36,566 nt of DNA, from the NCBI GenBank assembly GCA_016180425.1, contig JACPBF010000017.1, positions 1 to 36,566 of the forward strand, read 5' to 3'. How positions within the stretch are numbered: position 1 is the stretch's first letter; each line of letters starts with the position of its first letter. Positions 20,422 to 36,395 of the stretch are shown one piece after another. The stretch comes from Elusimicrobiota bacterium (GTDB lineage Bacteria; Elusimicrobiota; Elusimicrobia; 2-02-FULL-39-32). The notes under the pieces were generated by a model. The model was not told where the DNA came from and ran no database searches. It worked only from the letters and a program-made list of their open reading frames with translations. The translations under genes and the position numbers were made by a program.

Positions 20422-22527
20422 ATGTTTTCTCTCTACTGGTCACTTCCCTGCGCTTTCCTATTCTTACTAGCTCAATCTAAGTCATTTCTTTTTTTTATCC
20501 TTTCTAATCCCCTTTCCTTTAATTTAAATTCAGTTTTACAACTTTTTTCTCATAGTATAGATATAGGATCTGTTCTTTTTCTTTTTTTAGGTTTTTCTTT
20601 TTATGGGGAACTGTGCTTTAAGAAACGAGTCCAATTTGAAAACAATCTGGAAAGATTCCTTTTTACCTCTCTTATAGGAGAGGCTCTGGTTGCTGTTTTT
20701 ATTCTTTTTTTTGGTATTTTAGGTTTTTTTTCTCCTTGGTTTTTTTGGACTCTCTTTTTTTTCCTGCTTCTTGGAGCTTTTTTCAAAAGACAGATATTGA
20801 TTGAGGCTGTTTCCTATTTTTTTAAAAACATTAAGCGCAAAGTCACTTTGTTAGAATTTCTGCTTTTTGCCATTCTTAGCGCAGCGCTTTTAAGAGGATT
20901 GATTGCAAGCGGAGCCCTTCCCACAGATTGGGATTCCCTTGCCTACCATCTTGCATTCCCAAAATTATTTTTAGAAGAGGGAAGATTTTTTAGGATACCA
21001 TGGGCAATGAATGCGCATTACCCGCTGAATACAGAGATGATTTATACTTTTATTTTAGCCATGAGAGGGGATTTAGCCTGCCACTGGCTCAATTTTTTTC
21101 ATGCCATTTTACTTTTAGCTTTAATCGCTTATTTAGTTAGAGTTTATTTTATTCATTTTTTACAAAATTCTTCTATAAAGAGCTCTAATTCTATCAGGTC
21201 AACACTAGAAAGCTATTCTAGCTCCCATTTTTTAGCGGCGCTTCTTGCAGTCGCAATTTTTTCTGTGCAGCCTGTTTTTCAAAGAGACCTTGGCAATGCA
21301 TCTACAGATTTTCCAGTTGCTTTTGCCTGTATGCTTTCATTTTTCGCTATGATTAAAGCTCAAACCTTAGAAGATAGGAGGATCTCTAACTCATGGTTAT
21401 TTTTAGCAGGCATCTGTTCCGGCATAGCTATGTGCATCAAACTTACTGGTATTTGGTTCGTCTTATCTTTATTGACCTATAACCTATTTTGTTTTCGTTC
21501 GAGTTCATCTTTTTTATCATATCTCTTTGGAACCATTTTATTTGGCTTTCCTTGGTATCTAAAAAATTTTATTGTTACAGGGAATCCCATTTGGCCTTAT
21601 CTTGGGGAATGGTTTTGGGCAAGCCCAATAGAGATTGATGCCTGGCAGAGGATGAGGCTTTCCGTTACTGAAGGGGTGGAGAAGAATTTTTTTAATTGGA
21701 TCACAATTCCTTTTCAGATGATTTTTAAAAATAAAGCGTTTTCTTATGATTCTCATTATTTGTTAATTCCATTTTTAATGATTTTATCTCTTAAATTTTC
21801 ACTTCTTCGTTCTTTTACCCGCATAGAAAAGAGTCTCTTATTTATTTTTATTTTATTTTCAACTTTTTGGTTTTGGTCATATCAGAGTTGGCGCTATCTT
21901 CTGCCACTGGCTGGTTTTATAGCGCTTTTAATTGCAGTCTGGTCAGAGGAGCTATTTCAATTAAAAAAATGGAAAGGAATTGTAGGAGGAATCCTTATTT
22001 TTTCCTTTGTTCCCATTGCCCAACTCTCCATTAATAATGAAGCATTTATATTTTTTAACTTAAAATCTAAAAGTTTTCCGCATGTTTCAGCAAAACAAAG
22101 ATATTTGGAATTTTCATTAGGCGCTCCCTATAAACTCTCTGAGGTTGCCAATGAAATCTTGCCTAAGAACGCAAAAGTCCTTTTTTTTAGAGATGTGCGG
22201 GGGTATTATTTAAATAGAAGTTATGCGTGGGGGGATCCGCTGAATCCTGGAGTTTTTTCTTACACCGAGTTAAAGAATAGCTTTGAACTTTACCAGAAGC
22301 TAAAAAGTTTAGGTTTTACTCATATCCTTTACAATCCAACCATAGGAAATTATAAGGGAGATTTATCTTATTATGCCCGTTCTAATCAGATGATGGAAGA
22401 AGTTCTTAAAAATTATTGTCTGCCTATTTTTCAATATCATGGCATGGGAATATTTGAAATTAATCCGGAACATTCAGTTGCAGGGGGATCAGGGGATGGG
22501 GTGGAGCGCCATCTCCCCTTCTTTTAA
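20422..22527 (+). CDS. Polytopic membrane glycosyltransferase, GT39/ArnT-like (GT-C fold)
   Basis: A 701-aa protein with about a dozen hydrophobic helices in its first 550 residues and a soluble C-terminal part. The first large extracytoplasmic loop has PTDWDSLAYHLAFPKLFLEEG, typical of dolichyl/undecaprenyl-phosphate-sugar-dependent GT-C transferases, whose catalytic Asp lies in this loop. Later 'FGFPWYLKNFIVTGNPIWPY' is also typical of the family. It likely transfers a lipid-linked sugar to a surface polymer or protein at the inner membrane; donor and acceptor cannot be told from sequence. Its last 39 nt overlap the 3' end of the convergent mtaB gene. Confidence 0.8.
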   Translation: MFSLYWSLPCAFLFLLAQSKSFLFFILSNPLSFNLNSVLQLFSHSIDIGSVLFLFLGFSFYGELCFKKRVQFENNLERFLFTSLIGEALVAVFILFFGILGFFSPWFFWTLFFFLLLGAFFKRQILIEAVSYFFKNIKRKVTLLEFLLFAILSAALLRGLIASGALPTDWDSLAYHLAFPKLFLEEGRFFRIPWAMNAHYPLNTEMIYTFILAMRGDLACHWLNFFHAILLLALIAYLVRVYFIHFLQNSSIKSSNSIRSTLESYSSSHFLAALLAVAIFSVQPVFQRDLGNASTDFPVAFACMLSFFAMIKAQTLEDRRISNSWLFLAGICSGIAMCIKLTGIWFVLSLLTYNLFCFRSSSSFLSYLFGTILFGFPWYLKNFIVTGNPIWPYLGEWFWASPIEIDAWQRMRLSVTEGVEKNFFNWITIPFQMIFKNKAFSYDSHYLLIPFLMILSLKFSLLRSFTRIEKSLLFIFILFSTFWFWSYQSWRYLLPLAGFIALLIAVWSEELFQLKKWKGIVGGILIFSFVPIAQLSINNEAFIFFNLKSKSFPHVSAKQRYLEFSLGAPYKLSEVANEILPKNAKVLFFRDVRGYYLNRSYAWGDPLNPGVFSYTELKNSFELYQKLKSLGFTHILYNPTIGNYKGDLSYYARSNQMMEEVLKNYCLPIFQYHGMGIFEINPEHSVAGGSGDGVERHLPFF

Positions 22528-23712
22528 CTTTAAAGGCGGGGGAATACGGATGCCGTTATCTGTAAAACCGCCGTCAGATTCTGCAAGAACCATTCTACTT
22601 TGTCCTGCAAAGCGGTTTTGAAATTCTTTTCTCAAATTTTTATCTAATTCCAATAAAATCTGAACTCGTTTTTGGAGTGTGTCAGGAGCATTATGCTCTT
22701 TTAATTTTAGAGCGGATGTTCCAGGCCTGTCAGAAAAGGGAAATACGTGCAGACCATTAAAATGTTTTTCTATAAAGCTATAGGTGTTTTGGAAATTTTC
22801 TTCCTTTTCTTCTGGAAAACCAACAATCACATCTGTAGTGAGACCAACATCTGGCAAGAATTTTTTAATTTCAAGAATTTTTTCAGAGAAAAATTTAGAA
22901 TCGTACCATCGCCCCATTCTTTTTAGGATAAAATCATCGCCGGATTGTAAGGGCAAATGAAAATGTCTGCAAATTTTCTTATCACTTTGCGCTAACTCTA
23001 AGAGTTCTTTTGTCACTTCTGTAATTTCTAAGGAAGAGAGCCGAATCCGATAATTTCCATTTAAGCTCAACAGTTCTTTTAAAAGAGCCGCTAGATTTCC
23101 ATGAATTTTGCTCACCCTTCCTCCACTAGAGTTAAGTCCATAACTGCCCAAACGAATGCCAGTGAGCACAATTTCTTTATAGCCTTGATTCAAGAGAGCC
23201 TGAACCTCATTTTTAATTTCATCTATAGAACGACTTTCCATTTTAGGCCTGACTTTAGGGATGATGCAATAGGTGCAAGTCGCATCACAACCATCTTGTA
23301 CTTTCACAAAGGCTCTGGTGTGTCCATTAAAGAGTGTTAGGAGAGCGCTGTGGGGCGCTAAGAGAGAGCAGCCAGTAAGCGCTTCTGGGATCATCTCTTT
23401 TTCTTGATTGGAAAAGAGTTCAATTCTTGAAGAAATTTTTTTAATTTCATTCGGGTTTCTGGTTGCATAGCAGCCTGTAACCACAATTCTTGCTTTTTTA
23501 TTTTGGCGAAGAGCTTTACGCACAAATTGGCGGCATTTTCTATCCGCTTCACTAGTTACAGAACAGGAATTAATAATGCAAAGGTCGGAATGGGCTAGTT
23601 CTTGGGTGGTCTTGTAGCCTAATTGAAAAAGTTTTTCTCGAAGAGCTTCAGTTTCATATTGGTTTACTTTACAGCCAAAGGTATGGAAATAGACTGTTTC
23701 CAGAGTGGTCAT
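22489..23712 (-). CDS. mtaB: tRNA (N6-threonylcarbamoyladenosine(37)-C2)-methylthiotransferase MtaB
   Basis: A 407-aa radical-SAM methylthiotransferase. The start FHTFGCKVNQYETEALRE is the MtaB (rather than MiaB or RimO) signature. Three Cys of the UPF0004 domain (Cys14, Cys50, Cys81) bind the auxiliary cluster, and CDATCTYC (Cys142, Cys146, Cys149) binds the radical-SAM cluster. It adds a methylthio group to t6A37 of ANN-decoding tRNAs. The C-terminal TRAM domain is cut short (GFTDNGIRI and only about 20 residues after), giving about 20-40 residues less than usual, and this end overlaps the convergent glycosyltransferase gene. No SD is seen. It lies 79 nt downstream of the surface operon and could be its last gene. 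Confidence 0.93.
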   Translation of the reverse strand: MTTLETVYFHTFGCKVNQYETEALREKLFQLGYKTTQELAHSDLCIINSCSVTSEADRKCRQFVRKALRQNKKARIVVTGCYATRNPNEIKKISSRIELFSNQEKEMIPEALTGCSLLAPHSALLTLFNGHTRAFVKVQDGCDATCTYCIIPKVRPKMESRSIDEIKNEVQALLNQGYKEIVLTGIRLGSYGLNSSGGRVSKIHGNLAALLKELLSLNGNYRIRLSSLEITEVTKELLELAQSDKKICRHFHLPLQSGDDFILKRMGRWYDSKFFSEKILEIKKFLPDVGLTTDVIVGFPEEKEENFQNTYSFIEKHFNGLHVFPFSDRPGTSALKLKEHNAPDTLQKRVQILLELDKNLRKEFQNRFAGQSRMVLAESDGGFTDNGIRIPPPLKLKEGEMALHPIP

Positions 23713-23791
23713 TATTTTTTAGAAAATTTTAGAAAAAAAGTCATTCCAAAGAGAGCCAGCTAAGGGAAAATAACACTTTTGGATGAAATTT

Positions 23792-24730
23792 TTAGAAGCT
23801 GATTCCAACAGTGGCGCGATGGGATCCCGCGGTCTTTTCAACCTGTAAAGGGAACATAAATCCATAGTCAACAATTATAGAAAATTTCTCAGTTAGCTGC
23901 TTACGATAGCCAGCTCCAAAACCAATTTGGGACAGGTCAGAACCTGATCTTATAAAAACAGTTTCCTTTGCCAGAGAGATTTCAGCGCCAAAATGAGGAA
24001 CAATTTCATTGGAACGTAAAGAGATGTCCAAAGGGAATACGTTATTTTTCCATTGATAGGCCAACCCTAAAACCATTTCTTTAGGCAGTCTGTCCGTCTC
24101 TTTATAACCGATATTGGGTTGATTTAGAGATTTTAAGGAGAGGGCTACAGAAAGATTAGGGAATATGTCTGGTTCAGGGATTGAATAAAAGTGCAAATCA
24201 AAAGTGGTTGCATTTTGAATCCGTCCCTCTTTAAAAACCGGATCTCCAATGGTTCTTTCATCCATCACAAATCTGCGCATCAAATATCGAATGGAAACTC
24301 CAGCGCTTAAAGTTCCATTCCATTCACCTAAATAAGAGGTTAGGTCATGTGAGTATCCTGTGACAATGGTATCTTCCCTATAGATGTTTTGAGCGCCAAA
24401 ACTACCCCACCCTATTGCTAGAGAATGGCCGGTTCCTAAAGGTTGGAGATAACTAAATTGACTTAAACTTAAAGATACCTCATCTAATCCCGCAAAAAGC
24501 CGCGCATAACTAAAATTCGCCTGTTTGCTTTGAGTTTTATTTGTAGCAGCCATGTTGTAAAAAACTCCTGTAGCGTCATTGGAAATGGCATGAAAAGCTC
24601 CTGCTAAAGCTCCTACCCTGGCAGACCAATAATTTTCCTCAAATGCCGCTTGCGCAAGAGAAGAAAAAGAAATAAAAGCTAAGAGAATATAAATTCCTAT
24701 TTTTATTATATAACCATTTATATTTTTCAT
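23792..24730 (-). CDS. PorV/UPF0164-type outer-membrane beta-barrel protein
   Basis: A 312-aa protein with a signal peptide (YIIKIGIYILLAFISFSSLAQ, cleavage near AQA|AF) and then the typical PorV/UPF0164 opening: ARVGALAGAFHAISNDATGVFYNMAA. Alternating beta strands run to a C-terminal Phe (TVGISF), as expected for a BamA-inserted barrel. In the type IX secretion system PorV carries cargo with C-terminal sorting domains at the outer membrane. Here the preceding gene encodes a protein with a CHU_C/FlgD-like C-terminal domain, and its stop overlaps this start as ATGA (4-nt overlap), so the two are likely translationally coupled partners. No other T9SS genes are in the window. Confidence 0.8.
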   Translation of the reverse strand: MKNINGYIIKIGIYILLAFISFSSLAQAAFEENYWSARVGALAGAFHAISNDATGVFYNMAATNKTQSKQANFSYARLFAGLDEVSLSLSQFSYLQPLGTGHSLAIGWGSFGAQNIYREDTIVTGYSHDLTSYLGEWNGTLSAGVSIRYLMRRFVMDERTIGDPVFKEGRIQNATTFDLHFYSIPEPDIFPNLSVALSLKSLNQPNIGYKETDRLPKEMVLGLAYQWKNNVFPLDISLRSNEIVPHFGAEISLAKETVFIRSGSDLSQIGFGAGYRKQLTEKFSIIVDYGFMFPLQVEKTAGSHRATVGISF

Positions 24731-26307
24731 TTTGCCACTCCAATTGTGCCCGAGACCAGTGTTTCACCGGTTTTTATTTGGTAGAGATAAACACCGCTTT
24801 GCGCAGTTTCTCCACTGTCATTTTTTCCGTCCCAGATATTATTATTTTCTATTTTTTTTATCCTTTTTCCAGAGCTATTATAAATATTAATTTCAAATTG
24901 TCCGGATACCCCAAATTGCGCGAAATCATTGATGCCGTCCCCATTGGGCGTAATAATTTTTTCTTTTGTTCTAATTTCATCCGTTTTACTCTCTCCAGCG
25001 GGCAATAATCCATAGATGCTAAAATGGGAGACCTCGCCTGTCACTGTATTCGTGTTTTCATCCACCTTGCCTCCTAAGTTTCTCCAAGAAAATCCGTCGT
25101 ACCAAAATAAGCGCAACTCTTTTTCGTTTAAATTAGTTCCATCTACAATGCCGTCTTGGTCTGAATCTGAATAATTTAATTTCATGGTGATCGGGCGATT
25201 AAATATTGTTCCTTCTGGCCCAAACTCAAAACTATTCACCGCAACTTGTCCGTTCATGGAGGGAAGGGCTTGAGCGTTTAATTTTTTTGCAGAAATTTTT
25301 ATTTCATTTCGAATGCTTCCTGCTGGAAAAATAAGTTCTGTGGCATTGCCGCTGGAATCCCCTTCCTGCACTCTAAATTTTCCGCCGCTAGAGCTGATAG
25401 AGTCAGTTACAGGGCTAAACTCATTCAAGATTTCCAGTTTTATTGGCACTTGAATATTCCCCAGTGAAGTTTTATTAAAACCGTCATCTCCCACAATATA
25501 GTATTCTATCTCTCCTTCTTTGAGTTCTTGTTTGGCAAATGTGATCTGGGCAAGATACTCAAAAGGATTTTGGATATTTTGTGTTAAGGTCATAGGACGA
25601 GATTTAAAATCCGATTCCTCCTTATATTTATAGAATAGAGTGGCTGATTTAATTTGAGTATCATCTTCTAATTTTGCTTTAAAGCTGATCGTTTCATTGG
25701 CAAAGAACGCTTTTTTATTTTGTTGGATTTGGCTCACCCTAGGGGCTTTGGTGTCAGGGGCTAAATTAATCACTTCAAAAATAATTTTAGTTTTATATTT
25801 GCCTGGGGCGCTTTTGCCGTTAGGGATCTTGGTGCCAAGATAAAGGTACGTGGTTCCATTGGAATTAATCTTTACAGAAGTGGTTTCTTTTTTTCTTTGG
25901 GTAAAGTCCTTATTATTTTTGTCCTCAATAGTTTTCCATGAACTTTCTGTTTCTTCTGTAAGTGTGAAATCTTGAGCTTGTGTTGAAGGAAAATCTAGCC
26001 AATAGAGAGGGACTCTGGTTTTTAGCGTGCTGCTTAAGATTAGACCGCTGCGGTCTAAATCTTTTTCTCCTTGCCAATCGCTATTATCCGTGTAAATATG
26101 GATCTCTTTATACTCCATGTCTTGGTAAATAAGTTTATGATACTGTTTCGCCAGCCAATGGGTTTTATTTGTGCGAACTCGTCCAAAGTCAATGATAGAG
26201 GACAATTGATTGTCTCCAACATTGCGTAGTTCAACTTCTAAAGAGTATCCAAGAGCGCTCTTTGCCAAGGCCATTCCCAGTATAAAAGCAACTTTTAGAA
26301 AGTTCAT
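24727..26307 (-). CDS. Large secreted protein with CHU_C/FlgD-like C-terminal domain
   Basis: The preferred start is ATG 26307 (MNFLKVAFILGMALAKSALG, a clear signal peptide, with GGAG about 6 nt upstream), giving 526 aa. An alternative ATG at 26361 abuts the upstream stop (TAGATG), also has an SD-like AAGGA, and would add 18 residues. A beta-rich middle includes an Ig-like section with 'DDTQIKSATLFYKY' and a ZU5-like section (FPAGSIRNEIKISAKKL ... HFSIYGLLP) with a DSDQDGIVDG calcium-binding-like loop. The last 75 residues (TPNGDGINDFAQFGVSG ... WDGKNDSGETAQSGVYLYQI) are the FlgD-Ig/CHU_C fold used as a sorting domain for type IX secretion in Bacteroidota. It is likely exported and possibly surface-attached through the PorV-like neighbour. 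Confidence 0.75.
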   Translation of the reverse strand: MNFLKVAFILGMALAKSALGYSLEVELRNVGDNQLSSIIDFGRVRTNKTHWLAKQYHKLIYQDMEYKEIHIYTDNSDWQGEKDLDRSGLILSSTLKTRVPLYWLDFPSTQAQDFTLTEETESSWKTIEDKNNKDFTQRKKETTSVKINSNGTTYLYLGTKIPNGKSAPGKYKTKIIFEVINLAPDTKAPRVSQIQQNKKAFFANETISFKAKLEDDTQIKSATLFYKYKEESDFKSRPMTLTQNIQNPFEYLAQITFAKQELKEGEIEYYIVGDDGFNKTSLGNIQVPIKLEILNEFSPVTDSISSSGGKFRVQEGDSSGNATELIFPAGSIRNEIKISAKKLNAQALPSMNGQVAVNSFEFGPEGTIFNRPITMKLNYSDSDQDGIVDGTNLNEKELRLFWYDGFSWRNLGGKVDENTNTVTGEVSHFSIYGLLPAGESKTDEIRTKEKIITPNGDGINDFAQFGVSGQFEINIYNSSGKRIKKIENNNIWDGKNDSGETAQSGVYLYQIKTGETLVSGTIGVAK

Positions 26308-26361
26308 ATTTTCTCCAGTTCTTTGCTTTATCTCACTTGGTTTTTTAGAGTGTGCAATCAT

Positions 26362-27168
26362 CTAATTTTCCTTAAATTTCCCCATTAGCTTTTCTTCAAG
26401 GGTCTGATCACTTAAAATGATTTTAAATCCTTTCTTGTCCATTTGGATTTTATCTTCCATATCTTTATAAAAAAGTTTTAAAGTTCCTGAATCCAAAGAG
26501 TAATTTTTTTCTAAGGGAAATTCCGCAGTAAAGTTTATCTCTTCTTCAGGATTAATCTCATTGATCTTTGGATCTAGAACTTTGGAATCTAACTCACCCA
26601 TTAAATTGCGAATTTCAACAATTAACTTTGGCTTAATTCTTATATTCCCTTCGTTTTTTATTGCGCCATGAAGCAAAATGGATTTGTAATTTTTTTTAGC
26701 TTCTACTTTAGTTAATTTTGCTTTTACTTTTTCAGTTCCTTTGATGCGCAAGGTTAAAGGATGAAGATAACGAATCTCCATAAAAGGTTCTAATGGGTTT
26801 TCAGTTCTAATCATTACAATGCCCAGAAGTTCTCCTTTAGCTTTTTTAGGGACTTTGCAGGTTAGCTGGATCGTTTTACTTTCTTCTTGGTTAAGGGTGA
26901 ACTTTTTTTGAGAAAATTTAACCCATTTTTTCCTATTCATTTTTTCATCCGAGCTGCAAGGCAAAAAATGGAAAGTAACTTTCACTCTCTTTTGGTTTGT
27001 ATTTTTCAAAACCATCTGACTTTTTATTTTTTTTCCAACTTCTGCTTCTAAAGTAAAATGTTGCGGAGATATTTCTAGGGCAACAATGCCATCCGCCAGC
27101 GGCAGTGAAAAAGCGCTTAAGAGTAGAAGGAGCTGCCATTTAAAAATTTTCTTAAAATATTTTTTCAT
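26362..27168 (-). CDS. Secreted Ig-fold, pilus-chaperone-like protein
   Basis: A 268-aa protein with signal peptide (WQLLLLLSAFSLPLADG). It continues as an immunoglobulin-like domain: LEISPQHFTLEAEVGKK, then KNTNQKRVKVTF, then 'KWVKFSQKKFTLNQEESKTIQLTCKVPKKAKGELLGIVMI'-type strands (quoted in part), which is the layout of periplasmic fimbrial chaperones and DUF916-like domains. A second beta domain follows (KNEGNIRIKPKLIVEIRN). There is no usher gene in the window. Its ATG overlaps the preceding stop by 4 nt, so it belongs to the same operon. Family assignment is moderate. Confidence 0.6.
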   Translation of the reverse strand: MKKYFKKIFKWQLLLLLSAFSLPLADGIVALEISPQHFTLEAEVGKKIKSQMVLKNTNQKRVKVTFHFLPCSSDEKMNRKKWVKFSQKKFTLNQEESKTIQLTCKVPKKAKGELLGIVMIRTENPLEPFMEIRYLHPLTLRIKGTEKVKAKLTKVEAKKNYKSILLHGAIKNEGNIRIKPKLIVEIRNLMGELDSKVLDPKINEINPEEEINFTAEFPLEKNYSLDSGTLKLFYKDMEDKIQMDKKGFKIILSDQTLEEKLMGKFKEN

Positions 27169-28124
27169 TTTGAGAGAGTCTCCAGATTGATTCTAAACAA
27201 GATTCCTGAACTTATCCCTTCCCCAAGATCGTCAGGTGAAACCCGTAAGAGGTACTGATATTTTTTTCCATAGAATTTTTCCTTTTTTGGCAGTTTTAAA
27301 CTTATTTTTATTTTTTTAGATTTCCCGGCTTTAATTTTTATTTTATTTGGTTTAATACTAATTTCTGTTTCTTTGCTTCCCCATTCCATGCCTTCAGGCG
27401 GTTCCATGCCCAATGAGCTTCCATCCACAACTTCTATTTTAAATTTTTTGTTTTCAGAGCCAAAATTAATAATCTTAAGCGATCCTTTACTATTTTTAAG
27501 AGCTTTAATTTTTTTGCCAAGGAGCGTTTTTTTAAGAGTTGCCATCCCCGGATCCAATTTGAAACCCATATAGGAGCTTCCCTGCGTGAAATTTTCAGGG
27601 TTATTTTTCTTTTCCGCAATGGTCAGCAATAACCTGCTTTTAGTGCCTATCCCCATGCCAAACCCCCCGCCTTTTTTTGCCACTCTTGACCAAAGATAAA
27701 CAATGAATTTTCTCCCTAATAAAGCGTTTTCATTGGGTATGGTTATAGTTACGTTCGAATGGATCACTGTGCTTCCCTTTGTCTCAAAAATATTCGGGTT
27801 CACATGGATCCATTCCAAATCTGGAATATTTTCAAATCCCTCTTTTTTTTCATTTTCTTCCGGCAGAACTGGATCTAATTTTAAAATAACTTCTGAACTC
27901 CCTTCATAAACCACTTCCAGAGGAAATTGCAGTAGGGTGGTTAGGTTGTAAGTTGTTCCTGGTTGTAAATGTCTTAATAAAAGTTCACCCATATTTGAGC
28001 TTAAGCGCTCTCCTGCCTTAAGAGGCTGGAAATTAAAGCTAAAGAAAAAGATGAATAAAATAGTAATTTTCATTGTCTGTTTTTTAATCCATTTTTCAAG
28101 GTAAGCGCATAAATGTTTTTTCAT
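27165..28124 (-). CDS. Secreted two-domain beta-sandwich protein of the surface operon
   Basis: A 319-aa protein. The start at 28124 has an AAGGTGAG SD 7 nt upstream; an alternative ATG at 28073 (MKITILFIFFFSFNFQPLKAG) has none but gives a more compact signal peptide. A first beta domain is followed by a second with strands 'SKGSLKIINFG...KKFKIEVVDG' and 'KIKAGKSKKIKISLKLPKK', typical of Ig-like or chaperone-like domains, rich in Lys. No family recognised with certainty. Its stop overlaps the next start (ATGA). It probably works with the other Ig-type proteins in export or assembly of the operon's first product. Confidence 0.6.
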   Translation of the reverse strand: MKKHLCAYLEKWIKKQTMKITILFIFFFSFNFQPLKAGERLSSNMGELLLRHLQPGTTYNLTTLLQFPLEVVYEGSSEVILKLDPVLPEENEKKEGFENIPDLEWIHVNPNIFETKGSTVIHSNVTITIPNENALLGRKFIVYLWSRVAKKGGGFGMGIGTKSRLLLTIAEKKNNPENFTQGSSYMGFKLDPGMATLKKTLLGKKIKALKNSKGSLKIINFGSENKKFKIEVVDGSSLGMEPPEGMEWGSKETEISIKPNKIKIKAGKSKKIKISLKLPKKEKFYGKKYQYLLRVSPDDLGEGISSGILFRINLETLSK

Positions 28125-28167
28125 TTAAGCGCTCACCTTGAATCGTTTTGTTCCTTTAAAAGGCTCC

Positions 28168-28737
28168 TCATGGAACTACGACCGCGGATACATTGACTTC
28201 TGCTCTTGCGCTGCCAGTGCCAGAAGCTGGAGCATCTAACTTAATAAAGAGATTTCTCTCTTCATTGGGTTGAACATTGTTCCCTTTGACTCCATCTGTT
28301 AAATGGGTTTCAGTGTCATTGAAGAATTTTGTATTGGTGCTGGTGTCGTAGCTTGTGGTCAAGATATCGTTGTCCTGGAATTCAGTAACAGCTGGGGTCA
28401 CATCCCATTGGTGCCAAATCGCGGATAAACGATATTGATTTGCTCCTGGCAGAGTGATCACAGGCGTCCAGTTCCCGGTTGTGCCGGCTATTTTAATGGT
28501 AAAGTGCTCTGCGTCGCTTCCATCATTTTTATAAATAGCCCGGTCAGTGACTTTACTTGCTCCCGGAGCCACTCTTATATTTAAGGCAGCATCGCTCAGC
28601 CTTGCAACTGACACATTTTGCAGTGTCATTATTACTTCCACAGATACATTGTCTGCTCCAAAGGCAAAGCCTGAAACTAACAGGGCTATGGCTGTGGCTA
28701 GCTTAAAGGCAAGTACCTTATTTATTGTTTTACTCAT
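28168..28737 (-). CDS. Small secreted surface/pilin-like beta protein
   Basis: A 189-aa protein with a strong signal peptide (AFKLATAIALLVSGFAFG|AD) and the best ribosome site in the window (AAGGAGG, 6 nt before ATG), placed first in the operon and so probably abundant. The mature part (about 160 aa, no Cys) is beta-rich, with 'NVSVARLSDAALNIRVAPG', Trp residues at WTPV and WHQW, and a C-terminus ending in AEVNVSAVVVP. The company of chaperone-like proteins suggests a structural surface subunit, but there is no pilin family motif I can name. Confidence 0.6.
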   Translation of the reverse strand: MSKTINKVLAFKLATAIALLVSGFAFGADNVSVEVIMTLQNVSVARLSDAALNIRVAPGASKVTDRAIYKNDGSDAEHFTIKIAGTTGNWTPVITLPGANQYRLSAIWHQWDVTPAVTEFQDNDILTTSYDTSTNTKFFNDTETHLTDGVKGNNVQPNEERNLFIKLDAPASGTGSARAEVNVSAVVVP

Positions 28738-28994: not shown

Positions 28995-29022
28995 TTGACA
29001 TTTACTAATTTCCTGTTAAACT
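28995..29022 (+). promoter_or_regulatory. Promoter of the second giant gene
   Basis: A perfect TTGACA (28995-29000), 16-nt spacer, and an extended -10 (TG-T-TAAACT, 29014-29022). Predicted start near 29029, just before the inverted repeat. Confidence 0.55.
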
Positions 29023-29036
29023 TCTATTAGTATTGA

Positions 29037-29065
29037 ACGCGTAAGAATCTAACATTCTTACGCGT
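29037..29065 (+). promoter_or_regulatory. Perfect 12-bp inverted repeat (hairpin or operator)
   Basis: ACGCGTAAGAAT, a 5-nt loop (CTAAC), then the exact complement ATTCTTACGCGT, followed by GTTCTTTT. Placed about 8 nt after the predicted transcription start. It may be an operator, a 5'-stabilising hairpin or an attenuator; the following T-run is broken by a C, so terminator function is uncertain. Confidence 0.7.
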
Positions 29066-29145
29066 GTTCTTTTAAAGGTCAAAGAGTCACAATCACTCGG
29101 TCCATCCTAAAAGTTTTCTTCTAATTTAAGACTTGTAGGAGAAAG

Positions 29146-29172
29146 ATGGGCAGAGATCACATAACTCGATAA
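29146..29172 (+). CDS. Possible 8-codon leader peptide
   Basis: AGGAG (29137-29141) precedes ATG 29146 by 4 nt and the frame reads MGRDHITR then TAA at 29170-29172. It ends inside the 5' arm of the riboswitch, so its translation would interfere with the closing stem. Short and unsupported by comparison; could be chance. Confidence 0.3.
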   Translation: MGRDHITR

Positions 29173-29300
29173 AGGCAACTTCTGGTAGACACCAGAAGGC
29201 GCAAAGCTCAAAAGCCAAACCTACGATCTTAATGAAGCAGAAGTTTTCCTGCATTTTAAGATTTTGGTAGGGAAGCTGGTTTGAGTTACCGAAGGTTATG
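29160..29300 (+). ncRNA. Cyclic-di-GMP riboswitch, class I (GEMM-I)
   Basis: The region has the GEMM-I order: GGCAA (29174-29178), a P2 hairpin with 8-bp stem and AGAC loop (29179-29198), GCGCAAAGC (29199-29207, consensus GACGCAAAGC), AAACCTAC (29217-29224), a long P3 hairpin, GGTAGGGAAGC (29266-29276, consensus GGUAGGUAGC) and GTTACCGA (29285-29292, consensus GGUUACCGA). CTCAAA (29207-29212) pairs with TTTGAG (29280-29285), replacing the equivalent helix in the Vc2 aptamer. The G before CAA that distinguishes c-di-GMP from cGAMP binders is G. The outer stem pairs CATAAC (29160-29165) with GTTATG (29295-29300), which contains the start codon of the downstream gene, implying translational repression when ligand is bound. 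Confidence 0.87.
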
Positions 29301-32300
29301 ATAAAAAATAGTTCTCATCATCGTCATTCATTTTGGCTACGTCATACTTCGTTATGTATGGCCGTAGTCTTTTTTTATGTACAGGTAGGTTATGGAGTTA
29401 TAGAGCCTTTGGCTCAGACTCAAAAAGAGAAGAAGTACGCAAAACTGTGGCAAGAAAGAAAAGAAGCAGCGAATAAACTAAACAGCAAAGATCATCACAG
29501 CCAACAGCTACTCAAACAGGAATCAGACCCAACAGTATCTCTACCAAAACAAACTGAAGGACTCCTATCCCAACTCCCGTTTCTAGAGACAAACTTTTTA
29601 ACAAACTCCTTTCCTCAAACCCAAGAGTTTGGCAGGGATTTCCCTGTAGTATCCCCTAGTGAACTTGAAGTAGGGAAATTATCTCCTTCTCAATCTAAAA
29701 CTCTAGGTTCATGGCTGAAGGCGCTCCCTCCAAGTTATGCATCTTTAAGAGACCTCTATATCCCGCCCAACTGGCAGCCTCAAGATTTGATGGTGTTTCA
29801 TATCCAAGATGCTCATGAAAACTTTGAAGCTCAAAAGAATATCGCCAGGATCATTGAACTTCTTGCAGAAGCTAGGATTGATAATTCAGGTTTTAGGGTT
29901 CGTGCTCCCACCAAATCATCTGGGAATGATCTAAACGGACATCAGAATCAGAGGCACCAACTGCGAATGGTAGTTGGCTTAGAAGGAGCGTCTGGCCCTA
30001 TGAACTTTGAGCCTTACCAAACATTTCCAGAGCCAGGAATTACAAAAGAGATAGCAGACTACTTTTTAAAAGAATCGTTTATTAGTGGGGCAGAATATGC
30101 GGGAATGACTTTGAATTTAAACAGGGGGTTTGGGAATCGGGTTATAAAGAACTTACAACTAGATTCGATCTTTGAGAAAGAAACTTTCGGTAAATTACCC
30201 GAACCTCCTGTATTGTTCTGGGGAATAGAGAGTAAAGAACCGTATCTAGATCATATTAGAGCTTACAAGGACTCTATTCCTTTACAGCAAAAAGCAAAAG
30301 AGATACATCAAGTGCTTTTGTCTTCAGTTAACCAGATCAAAGCAACCGTATTCAACCCTAAACTTAAAACTTTAGATGAGAAGATAACCCGCTACAATAA
30401 AGGAGAGATCAAATTAGGAGATTACATTAAATTCCTATTTCAACTACAGCCAAAAGTTTCTAGCCATTACCCAAACCTTCGTCAATTCTTAGATGCCTTA
30501 TCTTTAGAAGAATCCCTTGACTATGAGAAAGTAGAAGAGGAGAGAAGAAAATTAACTAAAGAACTCACAGAAAAACTACCAAAAATCGAACTCAATAACT
30601 TAGCAGCCGCCAGTGTCTCTTACCGTTTAAAAACAATCACTCACGGCTCTTTCTACCAATATCTCAAAGATTTATGTTTTGCCTATGGAGTAGGTTTATC
30701 CCAATATCCAGATATGGACAAATATATCCGCTATGTTTTGACCAGTGAGAAGATCGTGTCTGATCATCTGTTTGATGAGATCAATCTCCTAGAGAGAAAG
30801 GGATTAGAATCGAACATCAGAAACAGGGATGAAAAAAAGCTGATCCAGATATCTAGAGATTTAACTTTAATAGAAAAGCTGATCAAATACGAGCTTAGCC
30901 CTATGGAATGGGAAGAGTATGCCAATAGAAAAGAGGAAATTCGCAAGGTTCAAGAGAGAATCAAGGAGTTTACTAAAAAAAATATTGACAGCATTCAAAA
31001 TAAAACAGCTGAGTTCGCACATAAAGAAATTGAACAGAAACAAGAACTCTTAAATTATATTCATGCTTTTGAGAAGTTCAACCAAGCAGCTATTAAAAGG
31101 GATGGACTGCTGGTAGGTAACCTTCTCAGTAAGGTTAAAGAAACAAAGTCTGGTTCTACCCTAATAGGGATCATGGTTACAGGAGGGTTCCATACTGCTG
31201 GCATTACACGGCTGTTAAAAGATAAGAAGACGGCATATGTTGTATTGTCGCCAAGAATAGGAGAAGTTAAAGGGTCAGGTTCCGAATATTTGGATGTTTT
31301 CACTAGAGATAAAACCCAGCTTGAAAAACTCTTCACTGGAGAACGGATCACTCTTAAATCTCCTCTCCCCACTGCTCTATATCAGGCTGGGGAAGAAATC
31401 CCTACTCAAACCTATGTGGTGGAACGAATGTTTACCCTGTTTGCCTCTGGAAGGTTAGTCAAGAAAGCTCTACAGCAGTTCTCTCATCTTACACGAGAAA
31501 ATAAAAAGCAAGTAGAGAAGGATCTTTTAAGTTGGATGGAGAGTATAAAAAAGGAGAAAGGGTTTACAACCATTGATGGGATTACCATTAAAAAGATTGA
31601 GGAATTTAGGAAATCCGATGGAACCATAGAGAAGCTGACAGTTAGAATTAGTCTTTATGGGAATGTGAATGGGGAGAGAAAAGAGAGTAAGGTGGCTTTG
31701 GAGATCAGAACTGAATGGTCAGCGCCCGCAAAGGATGATTCAAAGGGAACTGAAGGATTTAAAGTTCCAACGAAAGAGCAGAATCGTCAAAATCTTGCAA
31801 ATAAAATCAGTGAACTGAAGTTTGAAAATGAAATCTTCACAATTTATGTTCCCCAGAGTGATTTTATAGAGAGAGCGCTGGATGCCATCAAAAATCAGCT
31901 AGGATTAGTTTCTAAAATTGTCAAAAAGAACGCGGATCGTAAGATATTCCTCCAACTGCCAAATATACCTATGAAAATAATACCTCATATAACCAAGATA
32001 GCAGCCATTCTATTAGGAATTAAAATAGTCACACTAGCTGCGCCTGCTTTTGCAGCTGGAACAGGAGCTGATATCGTTACTTCTGTAGCGAATTTATTTC
32101 TAAATGTCTCTGTTACTTTTGCCTTCATCATGCTTTCTATTCCGCTCATTTTCATGCCAATACTCGATCAGTTAAAGGAGCAGGAGTTAGACCAGAAAAT
32201 GTTTAGTTCTTGGAAGCAAAGAATCAGAACTCTTGAAGAAAGACTGCCTAAAGAAGAATCAGTATTACTATCTGTGATGATGTTAGCGGGGACATTAATC

Positions 32301-35300
32301 TTCTTTTATTTTATTTCTTATATCAATAATGTACAACTGCCATTATTTAATCCAGAGCTAGTTGATCCCTACTTAATTGAATATAATTTCTCCCTCTTTG
32401 AAAAATTCGTTGGAACCTTTGCTTCAGAAAATCAAATAAATTTTTATTTTTTTAGGTATAAAGCATTGCAAATGTTCACTGGTTTATTTTATCTTTTTTT
32501 AGGAGCATCCATAGTAAACGCAACCATAAATCTTACCCATGCTGTTTCCTATTGGATAGAAAGAATTCATTATAAGCTCTTTGCGCAAGAGATTGCAGCG
32601 AAAAATGATCCAATAGCTAGAAAATTAAGATTAACTAAAGTCCCCATTAACCCTCCAAAGAGAAGTCGGGAACGTCGTATCCCTTTACGTAACACGGTTT
32701 GGCTTCAATCTGGCGGCTATACTATAAAATGTTGGGTTGCAAAGACAGGAGAAAATGAGCAAGTGTTTTATCGCCAATATGATGCAATGAGTGGAAACCC
32801 TCTGTCAGATTCTAAAGCAGTAATATTCCAAGGAACTAACTATCCCCCTACTTTTACAGTAGTTCCTCATATAGAAAATCTAGGTATTTTTAATGGGGAT
32901 TATGATACCCATCTAAAACATTTTAAAATCTCAATGGAACATCTTAAGTCCGGTTCATTCGCATTCAAGTTATACGATTATGAATCTGGAGTTACTGTGG
33001 TGCAAGATAGAAAAATAGAAAAGGAATCCACGGTCACAGAAATAAAAAAAGAGGTAAGCAACGTCATTATAGAAACTAATGATCCATTGAAATCACAAGA
33101 AGACGGTGAGGAAGAGATAAAAAGAATTTTACAGAGTGGAGAGATTCCATTAGATCAAATTTGGTCAGCTATAGGAGATGGGGACAGTTTTGGGGATACC
33201 AATAAGGTGGATAGCAAAGATTTGATTGGCACATTAGGGAAACCTGATTCAACTCGGGTTCTTTTCTCTAATAGGACGCACCGATCTATTTACAAAGAAT
33301 TAAGAATAGTGATGCAAGAGAAAGCGCAAGAGGATGGAGGAGTGGTATATCGCTATGTGGGCGGAGATGAGTTCATGCCAGTTTTTACAGGAACAAGAGA
33401 AGAGGTTAAAGAGAAGTTAGATGGGCTTGTAAAACATGTGAATGAATATTTTAAAGGTAAATATGCGATCTTTAGGATCAGTGGGGATAATCTTTCAAAG
33501 CAGCAGATCAATAGTTTAAAGAGAATGAAAGGATCATTGGTGTTAGCTAGACATGGGAAGGGTTATAACATTTTATTTGAGAGAAATGGGGAGATAGAGA
33601 GTAATTTAGAGGCTTTATTTAAAGGAAGAGAAGGGATTGAGGTAGCTCCTATAGACATAGAAACAGAGCTAAGAGGGTTAATCACTATTTCTATTGGAGC
33701 TGTTTCTGCAGAACAGGTGTTGGAGTATATTGTGAGTCAGAGTGCGAAAGAGAAAGTTAGAAAGGAAGAGAAAAAAATGAGGGCTCAAGGATCAACCAAT
33801 GATCAAATTCATGCAATGGAAAAGAGGATAAAACAAGAGATTAGGATGGAATGGATTACAATAAAAAATGGTCAAGAAGTGATTCAGCAAGAAAAGTTAG
33901 ATGAGTTCTATCTATGGAGCATTAGGATCGCAAATGATATGTTAAAAAAAGCAAAGGAGGAAGATGAGAAGAGAGTAAAGGGAAAAGGGAGGAATAGAGC
34001 CGAATTGCCAACAACTCTTAAAGAAAATATTACAGATTATTTAGAAAAAATACATAAACCAATCACTCCAGCTAAGATTCAGGAATTACAGGAGAAGTTA
34101 AAGAAACATAAGGATCAAGAAGGAAACAAGGGAGATGGATTAGATGGATTAACAGGAGCAGAGTTGTATGAGGTGTTTAGAGGTAAAGTATCTAAATCAG
34201 ATTATGGCAATCTCATGTTAGTTGCCATGTTGAATTGGGGTTTAGGTCAGAAACGAGCATTCCATGAGTTGCAGGATATAGTTGGGTATCTTTCTGGGAA
34301 CGAAGCGATTAAATTATTGTTTGACCAAATTCAATCTACTTTGCAAGAGATAGAGAATCTGCAAGGAATAAAAGAAGGAGAAGAATTCTATTTATCTCGC
34401 GGTCCTCCAGACAAGGCATATACCTATAGCACGAATGTAAGTTTGCGTGGTCCACCAGAGCTGTTTGAGAGACTTAAGTTCTTGGTAAAGGAATTAGAAG
34501 AAAAACTGAATGAGAAATTTAAAAAGGAGTTAGAGGAACTAAAAGAGCAAGAAAATTTTAAAGAGAAGTTTCCAGATTTTGATCAGTTACGCATTCAGTT
34601 AGTAATTTATGATGTATCGTTAGATGAGTTAAAAAAGCTTAAAGAGAGAAGCCCAGAATTAGCCAAGAGGCTGCAGAATGGGTTTCAAGCCATAGATTTA
34701 ATGGGTGGGTTAGTAGATTCTGCTTCAGTAATAGGGATGGATAGAATTAAAGAGGTATTGGATGTAAGGGAAATTAAGATAGAGGGCTATAAAGATATTT
34801 TGGTATTAGGGCTGCCATATAAGGATGGGAATCTAGATTTAAGAAGAATTGAGAAGTTATTAGAGTTGTATGAAGAAGCAGAACAAAAGATCGCAGAAGA
34901 AGCTTATGAGAATCTATTAGTAAGTCGAGGAATAGATCCAAAGAGCAGGGTGAATCCATTTAAAGGGAAAAGAGCGATTGAAGTTGCAACAAAACCAGAA
35001 ACTAAAAAGGAAGAAGTTTCTAAAGGGATTATAAAAAGAACAATAGATTTAGTAGTGAAAGAAGAAGGAACTTCTATGGTTGAATATGGGATTCTAACAA
35101 GTTTAGCTGCGTTAGGAGCAATAGTTTTATCTTTGTTTGTTCCTTTGATAACTCCTATGGTAGTTGCATTAACGACTATATTAGGATATCCAATCACAAC
35201 TAAAGATGAGAAGGTGGGACGGAACAAGAAGGGAAGATATTGGAGCAAGGATAAAGAGGGAGAGATCCCTATAGGAGCAAAAGTGGGTATAAAGGAAAAT

Positions 35301-36395
35301 TTTCAAGAACAATTAAAGAAAAAAGTCCCTTTCCATATTTTACCTGAAATAGAGAAACTAGATTTAAATGAGTTAAATGAAATTGAGAAAGCATTAAGAC
35401 TAGAACTAGACAATGATCAAGTAAAACAGATGTTAAGAGCTATTCATTTATTAACATACGCTGAACTGTTTGAAGGCGATTTTAAAGAGAAAGATGAACC
35501 AATAGGGGAACTATCAGATTTGTCAAAAGTGATTGGGTATCTTTCTTTAGGAGAGCTAAAGAGTGTTGTCCAGAGATTTAAAGAACTCTATAAAGAAGAT
35601 CGTAAAAAGGCAGAACAGTCCTTTGGAGTTTTTGCAGAGAGATTGTTTAGGCTTGGAGGAGAGTTCAGCTATGCTAATGACTATGCAAGAGACAGCTCTG
35701 AAAAATATTTTGAAGAATTGTGGCAATCCTATTTAGGTTTAAGAGTGATATTAGCTCCTCAACAAAAACTCTCTCAAACAAAACTTAAGCAAATGAAACA
35801 AACAGCATTAACTGCCTATCATCATGGAGCTGGAATGAGCGGGAAGTTTAAATCCCAACCATTCCCGGACCAAATCCCTCAAGACCATATCCTAGAGTTC
35901 CATCTATCTAGCCTAGATGGGAATGGAATCCAATCTCTGGTAGAACAGATTAAAAAACAGTTTGTAAAAGAAGAAAGAAACATAATTTTAATTTCTACCC
36001 ATAAAGAGGATATTACAGAAGAATCATTGATTTTTGCTTTAAATGGATTAGGTATAAATCAAGATATGTTACAAGCTTTATTTCCTTTTGGATTAGGGGA
36101 ATATTTAATTACAAGGGATGAAATAGAGAAGAAGCAGCTCATAGACCCAAGAATAGAGATTGAGCCTGATGGTTTATATGAGATCGTGTTGGAAAAAGTC
36201 AGAGCAATTCATGGAACACAAATTACAGAGGTTACACTAGATATTTTTACAGATCAGATGATCTTTAAAGAGAATTGGAAAGAAGGATTGAAGATTACTT
36301 TAAATTTCCTGATCTCTCCTACTCGAATTGTCCCAATCAGCTCGCAGATGGGAGAACTCTTTAAAGCAAGAGAACTATTGGCGCTACAACAGTAA
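29298..36395 (+). CDS. Second giant protein: signal peptide, ChaN/TraB-like region, membrane region, GGDEF, Flp-like prepilin segment, shared C-terminal domain
   Basis: A 2,365-aa protein. ATG 29298 is chosen because a signal-peptide-like N-terminus follows (SLCMAVVFFYVQVGYG) and the riboswitch ends on this codon; GAAGG is only 2 nt upstream, so its ribosome site is poor or unusual (next in-frame ATG 29358). Residues about 150-710 contain HIQDAHENFEAQKNI (from His167), VVGLEGASGPM, LFWGIESKEPY and VTGGFHTAGITRLLKDKK..YVVLSP, reminiscent of ChaN/TraB-type folds (weak). A membrane region (about 895-1110) has an AAPAFAAG site. A beta domain of unknown type follows, then a divergent GGDEF domain (1288-1570), a Lys/Glu-rich helical region, a Flp-like prepilin segment (1922-1970), more helices, and the shared C-terminal domain (2196-2365). 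Function unknown; c-di-GMP control of an envelope protein is the likeliest theme. Confidence 0.9.
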   Translation: MIKNSSHHRHSFWLRHTSLCMAVVFFYVQVGYGVIEPLAQTQKEKKYAKLWQERKEAANKLNSKDHHSQQLLKQESDPTVSLPKQTEGLLSQLPFLETNFLTNSFPQTQEFGRDFPVVSPSELEVGKLSPSQSKTLGSWLKALPPSYASLRDLYIPPNWQPQDLMVFHIQDAHENFEAQKNIARIIELLAEARIDNSGFRVRAPTKSSGNDLNGHQNQRHQLRMVVGLEGASGPMNFEPYQTFPEPGITKEIADYFLKESFISGAEYAGMTLNLNRGFGNRVIKNLQLDSIFEKETFGKLPEPPVLFWGIESKEPYLDHIRAYKDSIPLQQKAKEIHQVLLSSVNQIKATVFNPKLKTLDEKITRYNKGEIKLGDYIKFLFQLQPKVSSHYPNLRQFLDALSLEESLDYEKVEEERRKLTKELTEKLPKIELNNLAAASVSYRLKTITHGSFYQYLKDLCFAYGVGLSQYPDMDKYIRYVLTSEKIVSDHLFDEINLLERKGLESNIRNRDEKKLIQISRDLTLIEKLIKYELSPMEWEEYANRKEEIRKVQERIKEFTKKNIDSIQNKTAEFAHKEIEQKQELLNYIHAFEKFNQAAIKRDGLLVGNLLSKVKETKSGSTLIGIMVTGGFHTAGITRLLKDKKTAYVVLSPRIGEVKGSGSEYLDVFTRDKTQLEKLFTGERITLKSPLPTALYQAGEEIPTQTYVVERMFTLFASGRLVKKALQQFSHLTRENKKQVEKDLLSWMESIKKEKGFTTIDGITIKKIEEFRKSDGTIEKLTVRISLYGNVNGERKESKVALEIRTEWSAPAKDDSKGTEGFKVPTKEQNRQNLANKISELKFENEIFTIYVPQSDFIERALDAIKNQLGLVSKIVKKNADRKIFLQLPNIPMKIIPHITKIAAILLGIKIVTLAAPAFAAGTGADIVTSVANLFLNVSVTFAFIMLSIPLIFMPILDQLKEQELDQKMFSSWKQRIRTLEERLPKEESVLLSVMMLAGTLIFFYFISYINNVQLPLFNPELVDPYLIEYNFSLFEKFVGTFASENQINFYFFRYKALQMFTGLFYLFLGASIVNATINLTHAVSYWIERIHYKLFAQEIAAKNDPIARKLRLTKVPINPPKRSRERRIPLRNTVWLQSGGYTIKCWVAKTGENEQVFYRQYDAMSGNPLSDSKAVIFQGTNYPPTFTVVPHIENLGIFNGDYDTHLKHFKISMEHLKSGSFAFKLYDYESGVTVVQDRKIEKESTVTEIKKEVSNVIIETNDPLKSQEDGEEEIKRILQSGEIPLDQIWSAIGDGDSFGDTNKVDSKDLIGTLGKPDSTRVLFSNRTHRSIYKELRIVMQEKAQEDGGVVYRYVGGDEFMPVFTGTREEVKEKLDGLVKHVNEYFKGKYAIFRISGDNLSKQQINSLKRMKGSLVLARHGKGYNILFERNGEIESNLEALFKGREGIEVAPIDIETELRGLITISIGAVSAEQVLEYIVSQSAKEKVRKEEKKMRAQGSTNDQIHAMEKRIKQEIRMEWITIKNGQEVIQQEKLDEFYLWSIRIANDMLKKAKEEDEKRVKGKGRNRAELPTTLKENITDYLEKIHKPITPAKIQELQEKLKKHKDQEGNKGDGLDGLTGAELYEVFRGKVSKSDYGNLMLVAMLNWGLGQKRAFHELQDIVGYLSGNEAIKLLFDQIQSTLQEIENLQGIKEGEEFYLSRGPPDKAYTYSTNVSLRGPPELFERLKFLVKELEEKLNEKFKKELEELKEQENFKEKFPDFDQLRIQLVIYDVSLDELKKLKERSPELAKRLQNGFQAIDLMGGLVDSASVIGMDRIKEVLDVREIKIEGYKDILVLGLPYKDGNLDLRRIEKLLELYEEAEQKIAEEAYENLLVSRGIDPKSRVNPFKGKRAIEVATKPETKKEEVSKGIIKRTIDLVVKEEGTSMVEYGILTSLAALGAIVLSLFVPLITPMVVALTTILGYPITTKDEKVGRNKKGRYWSKDKEGEIPIGAKVGIKENFQEQLKKKVPFHILPEIEKLDLNELNEIEKALRLELDNDQVKQMLRAIHLLTYAELFEGDFKEKDEPIGELSDLSKVIGYLSLGELKSVVQRFKELYKEDRKKAEQSFGVFAERLFRLGGEFSYANDYARDSSEKYFEELWQSYLGLRVILAPQQKLSQTKLKQMKQTALTAYHHGAGMSGKFKSQPFPDQIPQDHILEFHLSSLDGNGIQSLVEQIKKQFVKEERNIILISTHKEDITEESLIFALNGLGINQDMLQALFPFGLGEYLITRDEIEKKQLIDPRIEIEPDGLYEIVLEKVRAIHGTQITEVTLDIFTDQMIFKENWKEGLKITLNFLISPTRIVPISSQMGELFKARELLALQQ
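31960..32620 (+). other. Membrane region with internal signal-peptide-like segment
   Basis: IIPHITKIAAILLGIKIVTLAAPAFAAG has a basic/hydrophobic build ending in an A-F-A|A SPase I-type motif near residues 915-922. At least three more hydrophobic helices follow (VSVTFAFIMLSIPLIFMPIL; LLSVMMLAGTLIFFYFISYI; FTGLFYLFLGASIVNATINL), so this is the main membrane part of the protein. Confidence 0.6.
33160..34010 (+). other. Domain: divergent GGDEF (diguanylate cyclase-like)
   Basis: Residues about 1288-1570. DGDSFGDTN (Asp1294, Asp1296, Phe1298, Asp1300, Asn1302) matches the family's D.D.FK..ND; YVGGDEFMPV carries an intact GGDEF (1355-1359); ITISIGAVSAEQ matches the 'vTiSiGva' strand; and ANDMLKKAKEEDEKRVKGKG matches the 'AD.ALY.AK..GRN' helix. 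An insertion of about 80 residues lies between GGDEF and TISIG, and the GH..GD segment after the first motif is degenerate. It could synthesise or merely bind nucleotide. The gene's leader carries a c-di-GMP aptamer. Confidence 0.82.
35061..35190 (+). other. Embedded Flp/Tad-type prepilin-like segment
   Basis: EEG|TSMVEYGILTSLAALG (Gly1924, Glu1929, Tyr1930) reproduces the Flp prepilin pattern: Gly at -1, Glu at +5, Tyr at +6, EYG and then a hydrophobic helix. The preceding residues are basic (IKRTIDLVVK). In true Flp pilins this is a 50-70 aa protein; here it lies more than 1,900 residues into a giant protein. A second hydrophobic stretch (ITPMVVALTTILGYP) follows. Confidence 0.75.
35883..36395 (+). 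other. Shared C-terminal domain (copy in giant protein 2)
   Basis: Residues 2196-2365 match the last 176 residues of the first giant protein in order and spacing (DHILEFHLS / DHVLTLDFS; YLITRDEIE / WIVTSREEM; TRIVPISSQMGEL / GTILPMSPELEQE). A few small gaps are needed in the first third. Confidence 0.65.

Follow-up and report, generated by a model that had tools for sequence, protein, structure and literature searches.

The window (the whole stretch of DNA analysed, 36,566 nucleotides of contig JACPBF010000017.1 of an Elusimicrobiota bacterium) carries near its right end a large gene preceded by a structured RNA. The features needed below are the following.

28995-29022, + strand: promoter-like TTGACA-16-TAAACT from a consensus scan, with TG before the -10; transcription would start at ~29029
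29037-29065, + strand: 12-bp hairpin in the 5' leader with a T-rich tail, GTTCTTTT (z -6.25)
29160-29165, + strand: P1 5' strand, CATAAC (sequence, fold and cross-locus covariation)
29164-29293, + strand: c-di-GMP-I (GEMM-I, RF01051) aptamer with an enlarged P3 (40 bits, cut-off 35)
29179-29198, + strand: P2, 8 bp (29179-29186 / 29191-29198), with the loop AGAC instead of GNRA
29213-29219, + strand: AGCCAAA in P3, complementary over 7 bp to TTTGGCT at 29332-29338 (terminator 5' arm)
29295-29300, + strand: P1 3' strand, GTTATG, including the start codon 29298-29300 (sequence, fold and covariation)
29298-36395, + strand: regulated gene, 2365 aa, with a signal-peptide-like N-terminal segment
29335-29376, + strand: predicted intrinsic terminator, stem 29335-29347 / 29356-29361 + 29363-29369, then TTTTTTT at 29370-29376
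29358-29360, + strand: second in-frame ATG (Met21) within the terminator 3' arm, an alternative start
33000-33790, + strand: divergent GGDEF-like domain (GDGDSFGDTN at aa 1293, GGDEF at aa 1355)

Large Elusimicrobiota proteins that share the first ~820 residues of the 2365-aa protein form a family. The relatives were recovered from contigs with an alignment as the query, while a single-protein query matched nothing. In the window's family of genomes at least 10 family members are directly preceded by a riboswitch, and the open frames of riboswitch-controlled relatives extend up to 13,472 aa. The first-pass annotation had described the regulated gene as giant; at 2365 aa it is large, but small beside these relatives. 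A study of huge proteins reportedly mentions Elusimicrobiota. The protein also contains a Flp-pilin-like stretch, EEGTSMVEYGILTSLAALGAIVLSLF (aa 1922-1960, ~35060-35170 in the window). A second very large frame of at least 6277 aa, open at the contig start, occupies the beginning of the window (17-18850). In a divergent cluster on the minus strand (22489-28737), positions 22489-23712 encode a radical SAM / UPF0004 protein, and a CHU_C type IX secretion signal domain lies at 24727-26361.

Upstream of the aptamer, the promoter-like element is weak, as three such matches were found when 1.9 are expected in shuffles. The 29037-29065 hairpin lies just past the predicted transcription start and has a conserved counterpart immediately ahead of the aptamer in the relative G001 C10. 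At 29137-29172 an AGGAG precedes a small open frame, ATG GGC AGA GAT CAC ATA ACT CGA TAA, which ends within the conserved GATAAAGG of the aptamer, spans the P1 5' strand and occurs in paralogue C41b as well. This short upstream ORF (29146-29172), with its strong Shine-Dalgarno sequence, was set aside as a regulator, since paralogue C32 has ATA in place of its ATG and G001 C10 lacks the ORF.

Identity of the aptamer

Recognition of a GEMM-I aptamer in the first-pass annotation was borne out by Rfam. The cmscan match to RF01051 on the forward strand covered the full model (1-87) with an E value of 1.4e-4, and its 40 bits exceed the gathering cut-off of 35 bits. No other Rfam family scored above cut-off within the window. 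The cmscan alignment preserves the consensus blocks of the ligand pocket (GGCAA, GCGCAAAG and ACCGAA), and the binding-core blocks AAAGGCAA, GCGCAAAG and ACCGAA align to the conserved core of the model. By our own reading, a G in this core would be the equivalent of G20 of Vc2, the role of which has been described (PMC9262584). The minimum free energy (MFE) fold of 29158-29310 holds P1, P2 and the enlarged P3 at -47.6 kcal/mol (z -4.97), a value equalled by 0 of 200 shuffles, and the 8-bp P2 noticed earlier is paired as had been proposed.

A GNRA tetraloop on P2 with a receptor in P3 is usual for c-di-GMP-I aptamers, as an accessory rather than a defining feature. The P2 loop of the window aptamer (29187-29190) is AGAC and its receptor is degenerate; GAAA is retained in paralogues C41b, C32 and G001 C10. 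The window aptamer may therefore be weaker than its paralogues. It also has the lowest score among the ten c-di-GMP-I aptamers of the genome. The aptamer is nonetheless almost certainly real, and by alignment and predicted fold the RNA before the large gene is a c-di-GMP-I riboswitch, with binding of c-di-GMP predicted. Four recognisable canonical GGDEF genes elsewhere in the genome make c-di-GMP a plausible ligand. Among the 341 Elusimicrobiota genomes searched, 139 possess c-di-GMP-I aptamers, and a literature search found no paper on Elusimicrobia c-di-GMP riboswitches. Several Elusimicrobiota genomes have tandem c-di-GMP-I aptamers, at most a few hundred nucleotides apart (L039; G325 C11, G323 C40, G327 C6).

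The start codon within P1

CATAAC at 29160-29165 is exactly complementary to GTTATG at 29295-29300, the last three nucleotides of which are the ATG. This closing stem had been noticed at the outset; it appears in the MFE fold and covaries over six loci (the window; G000 C41b, C32 and C19; G001 C10; G004 C132), in all of which the ATG lies exactly 4 nt past the CCRAA of the aptamer. With the six homologous loci in one common P1 register, 77.8% of the cells are paired, as compared with 24-39% in slid registers. Three pairs are altered on both sides, and the covariation score was matched by 1 of 500 shuffles in this small sample, three rows of which share upstream sequence by descent. The compensatory variants are CATAAC/GTTATG, ATCACA/TGTGAT and CTCAT/ATGAG. 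Support from this comparison for a P1 that includes the ATG appears good, not overwhelming, and we consider it very likely that P1 includes the AUG in vivo.

The pairing is clear mainly within the window's family. G049 C2, which belongs to another family, has its own version of P1 (ATAGT/ACTAT). In other families the start codon adjoins the aptamer, yet its pairing with P1 is often poor, so that AUG capture is no general rule.

The first-pass annotation held that the start codon rather than a Shine-Dalgarno sequence is hidden. Indeed, no Shine-Dalgarno sequence stands at normal distance before the 29298 ATG, which would make the AUG itself the thing to hide. The anti-Shine-Dalgarno end of the 16S rRNA is intact in the genome, and inspection by eye of six window genes found clear Shine-Dalgarno sequences in some. 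Close to its 3' end the 16S rRNA gene is split by ~0.8 kb (L152 ~3010-3820) with a homing-endonuclease-like frame, and the anti-Shine-Dalgarno sequence lies beyond the insert.

A predicted terminator in the signal-peptide codons

A second RNA structure lies ~75 nt downstream of the aptamer, within codons 13-27, where the hydrophobic stretch of the signal peptide is encoded. It consists of the 5' arm GGCTACGTCATAC, an 8-nt loop and the 3' arm GTATGG-C-CGTAGTC, forming 13 bp, and is a stable hairpin (-15.5 to -16.7 kcal/mol, z -5.85) with a U-tract (U7) directly after it, as in an intrinsic terminator. As a null model, codons were shuffled among synonymous positions, with the protein and codon use kept. 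The window terminator was equalled by 3 of 150 such shuffles (p ~0.03), those of G004 C132, G000 C19 and G049 C2 by 0, 1 and 0 of 150, respectively. Sister locus C32 has a weak in-gene hairpin of -6.5 kcal/mol, and 44 of 150 shuffles were as good. The stems vary from 13 bp in the window to 15 bp in G004 C132 (-18.3 kcal/mol) and a different stem in C19 (-14.0 to -15.5 kcal/mol), and their register differs among loci. A clear and independent example of a predicted in-gene terminator comes from G049 C2 (-21.7 kcal/mol, z -8, within signal-peptide codons).

The U-tract is read as protein. The residues VFFY are written GTC TTT TTT TAT in all six short-spacing family genes, and the equivalent is written TTC TTT TAT/TAC in all five long-spacing relatives, whose terminator is in the leader. 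At least one relative without an aptamer (G001 C11) also has the T7 codons; they could be inherited, and alone they are no proof of a terminator. We predict that the window terminator probably works.

Predicted in-gene terminators across the Elusimicrobiota

We classified 157 Elusimicrobiota c-di-GMP-I loci. The start codon lies 0-9 nt after the aptamer in 66 of them (a few of these starts are probably mis-assigned, e.g. G000 C41a, with a likely start at +98), and a terminator lies between aptamer and start codon in 36 of the 157. At a threshold of -9 kcal/mol or lower, 35 of the 66 short-spacing loci have an in-gene terminator, as compared with 9.3 expected and a maximum of 16 in 100 synonymous shuffles. 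At -15 kcal/mol the count is 21 of 66 (3.3 expected, maximum 8). After removal of similar sequences, 25 of 51 loci retain one (7.5 expected, maximum 12). About half of the short-spacing loci show no in-gene terminator. These predictions indicate that the in-gene terminator arrangement recurs across the Elusimicrobiota. The predicted terminator inside the codons of the signal peptide, together with its repeated occurrence in this phylum, is the more interesting feature.

Proposed mechanism of the switch

Then, how might the aptamer and the terminator work together? P1 of c-di-GMP-I riboswitches is known to be stabilised by the ligand, and Cd1 of C. difficile turns expression OFF in response to c-di-GMP (PMC9262584). 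In the long-spacing paralogues C10 and C21, whose start codons lie far from the aptamer, the leader terminator has a 5' arm that complements aptamer sequence (CTACAAGACT/AGTCTTGTAG and GCAAAGCTA/TAGCTTTGC, respectively). Bound ligand would free the terminator, so these paralogues appear to be OFF switches by design. As P1 holds the AUG, the OFF direction would also apply to the short-spacing genes, and ligand likely turns expression off. The direction proposed in the first-pass annotation, in which ligand shuts translation, is thus probable; the in-gene terminator had been missed, and the pure translational control it favoured is not what we favour.

The best explanation, which we hold by a modest preference, is an OFF switch in which c-di-GMP would fold P1, hide the AUG and let the in-gene terminator stop transcription. 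At high c-di-GMP, the aptamer and P1 would form and the AUG would be inaccessible. No ribosome would then follow behind the RNA polymerase, and the in-gene terminator would end transcription after ~26 codons. At low c-di-GMP, P1 would open, and either a ribosome initiating at the AUG or pairing of the aptamer with the terminator 5' arm would block the terminator hairpin. With the hairpin prevented, the full gene would be transcribed and translated.

Of these two ways to block the hairpin, direct pairing has AGCCAAA/TTTGGCT as the only candidate antiterminator found in the window, and it appears weak. No strong antiterminator was found there, the aptamer-terminator duplex ranking 48 of 55 relative to other loci, and the truncated window transcript keeps the aptamer in its predicted fold. 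Both observations favour the ribosome-coupled version for the window, for which, as against direct antitermination, the chances may be about even.

In a purely translational OFF switch, P1 would cover the AUG, and the coding-region hairpin would not act as a terminator. The covarying P1-ATG pairing suits such a switch, as does an AUG left as the target to hide where no Shine-Dalgarno sequence stands at normal distance, and riboswitches are known to act by concealing the start codon (PMC7266159). However, the window hairpin with its U7, rarely equalled in synonymous shuffles, and the surplus of in-gene terminators throughout the phylum argue against it. Given the terminator signature in the first 27 codons, control of transcription, alone or coupled to translation, is no less likely than translational control alone, and we regard a purely translational switch as unlikely.

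A conventional attenuator would have an aptamer strand act as a direct antiterminator against the terminator 5' arm, the P1-AUG pairing being incidental to a start at the aptamer edge. The long-spacing paralogues have this design, the MFE folds of the close paralogues C41b and C32 pair the aptamer 3' strand strongly with the terminator region, and the window offers its 7-bp complement. That pairing is weak in the window, however, and the conserved 4-nt spacing and the compensatory changes in P1 would be left unexplained, so that a direct attenuator has only a small chance of being the answer.

Should translation start at Met21 (29358) or later, the terminator would lie in the leader, as in S. 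meliloti metA, where a downstream AUG2 is the precedent (PMC9373788). Met is conserved at this position in all paralogues compared. However, W.R.TS.GMA, the sequence leading up to it, is similar to that of paralogues in which the start follows a leader terminator, which favours the first AUG. Moreover, Met21 is part of the terminator stem, and a protein starting there would lack a charged n-region. A start at Met21 is improbable, and we favour initiation at the first AUG, 29298, from these comparisons. A decayed or constitutive element that no longer switches would fit the low aptamer score, the AGAC loop and the degenerate receptor, but is quite improbable given the intact pocket blocks, the retained P1 and the strong fold.

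The GGDEF-like domain

The first-pass annotation assigned a GGDEF domain to the protein and proposed a feedback loop on c-di-GMP. The GGDEF motif (aa 1355) and the upstream DxD metal site (aa 1293) are present. In a seven-sequence alignment they are conserved as D-x-D and G-G/A-D-E, the relatives having GGDEF, GADEF or GADEI. However, Pfam GGDEF (PF00990) did not match the domain, even when it was searched in pieces, and the assignment was overstated. In hhalign the motif and the metal Asp fall in register with real GGDEF domains at a probability of only 2.35%, and the single-sequence structure prediction is poor (pLDDT 49.7). A search of nine genomes of the family found homologues in the genus alone; all of them belong to large frames under riboswitch control, apart from one located at the edge of a contig. 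With the motif residues present, the Pfam miss and the homologues in riboswitch-controlled genes, feedback through this domain is an attractive but unproven possibility, which had been claimed too strongly.

Discussion

The c-di-GMP-I riboswitch is already known, and what is new here is the predicted expression platform, with a terminator inside the gene and the AUG in P1. The initial observation of the aptamer and its closing stem is confirmed; its interpretation is supported in part. More tentatively, and as a reading less likely than not, the short-spacing loci may share a distinct Elusimicrobiota platform, in which the start lies at the 3' edge of the aptamer, a ligand-controlled terminator lies in the signal-peptide codons and ribosome entry at the AUG decides if the polymerase reads through that terminator. 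Phe-rich codons would supply the U-tract, and genes for very large secreted proteins would be shut off after ~26 codons. Riboswitch terminators are usually sought between aptamer and start codon. If they often lie inside signal-peptide codons, annotation would miss them and class such riboswitches as translational. One stretch of DNA would be protein sequence and regulatory RNA simultaneously, a cheap means for a poorly cultured phylum to avoid transcribing genes for proteins of thousands of residues.

Among known systems, C. difficile Cd1, of the c-di-GMP-I OFF type, shares with the window the aptamer, the ligand-stabilised P1 and, in the paralogues, the terminator-based OFF design. In the window, unlike Cd1, the terminator is inside the coding region, the start codon is in P1, P3 is enlarged and the P2 loop is non-GNRA. 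Translational riboswitches that hide the ribosome-binding site or start codon (PMC7266159) likewise place the start codon in a ligand-stabilised helix, whereas the arrangement in the window does without a Shine-Dalgarno sequence and has a predicted terminator further on, within the gene. The SAM-II riboswitch of S. meliloti metA has the same order of riboswitch, AUG1, intrinsic terminator and in-frame AUG2. However, its aptamer is different, its AUG2 past the terminator is the true start, and its terminator is not predicted to respond to ligand (PMC9373788). Bacillus thuringiensis Bc1 combines control of transcription and translation and also draws the start codon into structure with ligand, but its terminators precede the start codon and belong to a leader that reaches up to 220 bp (PMC11218506).
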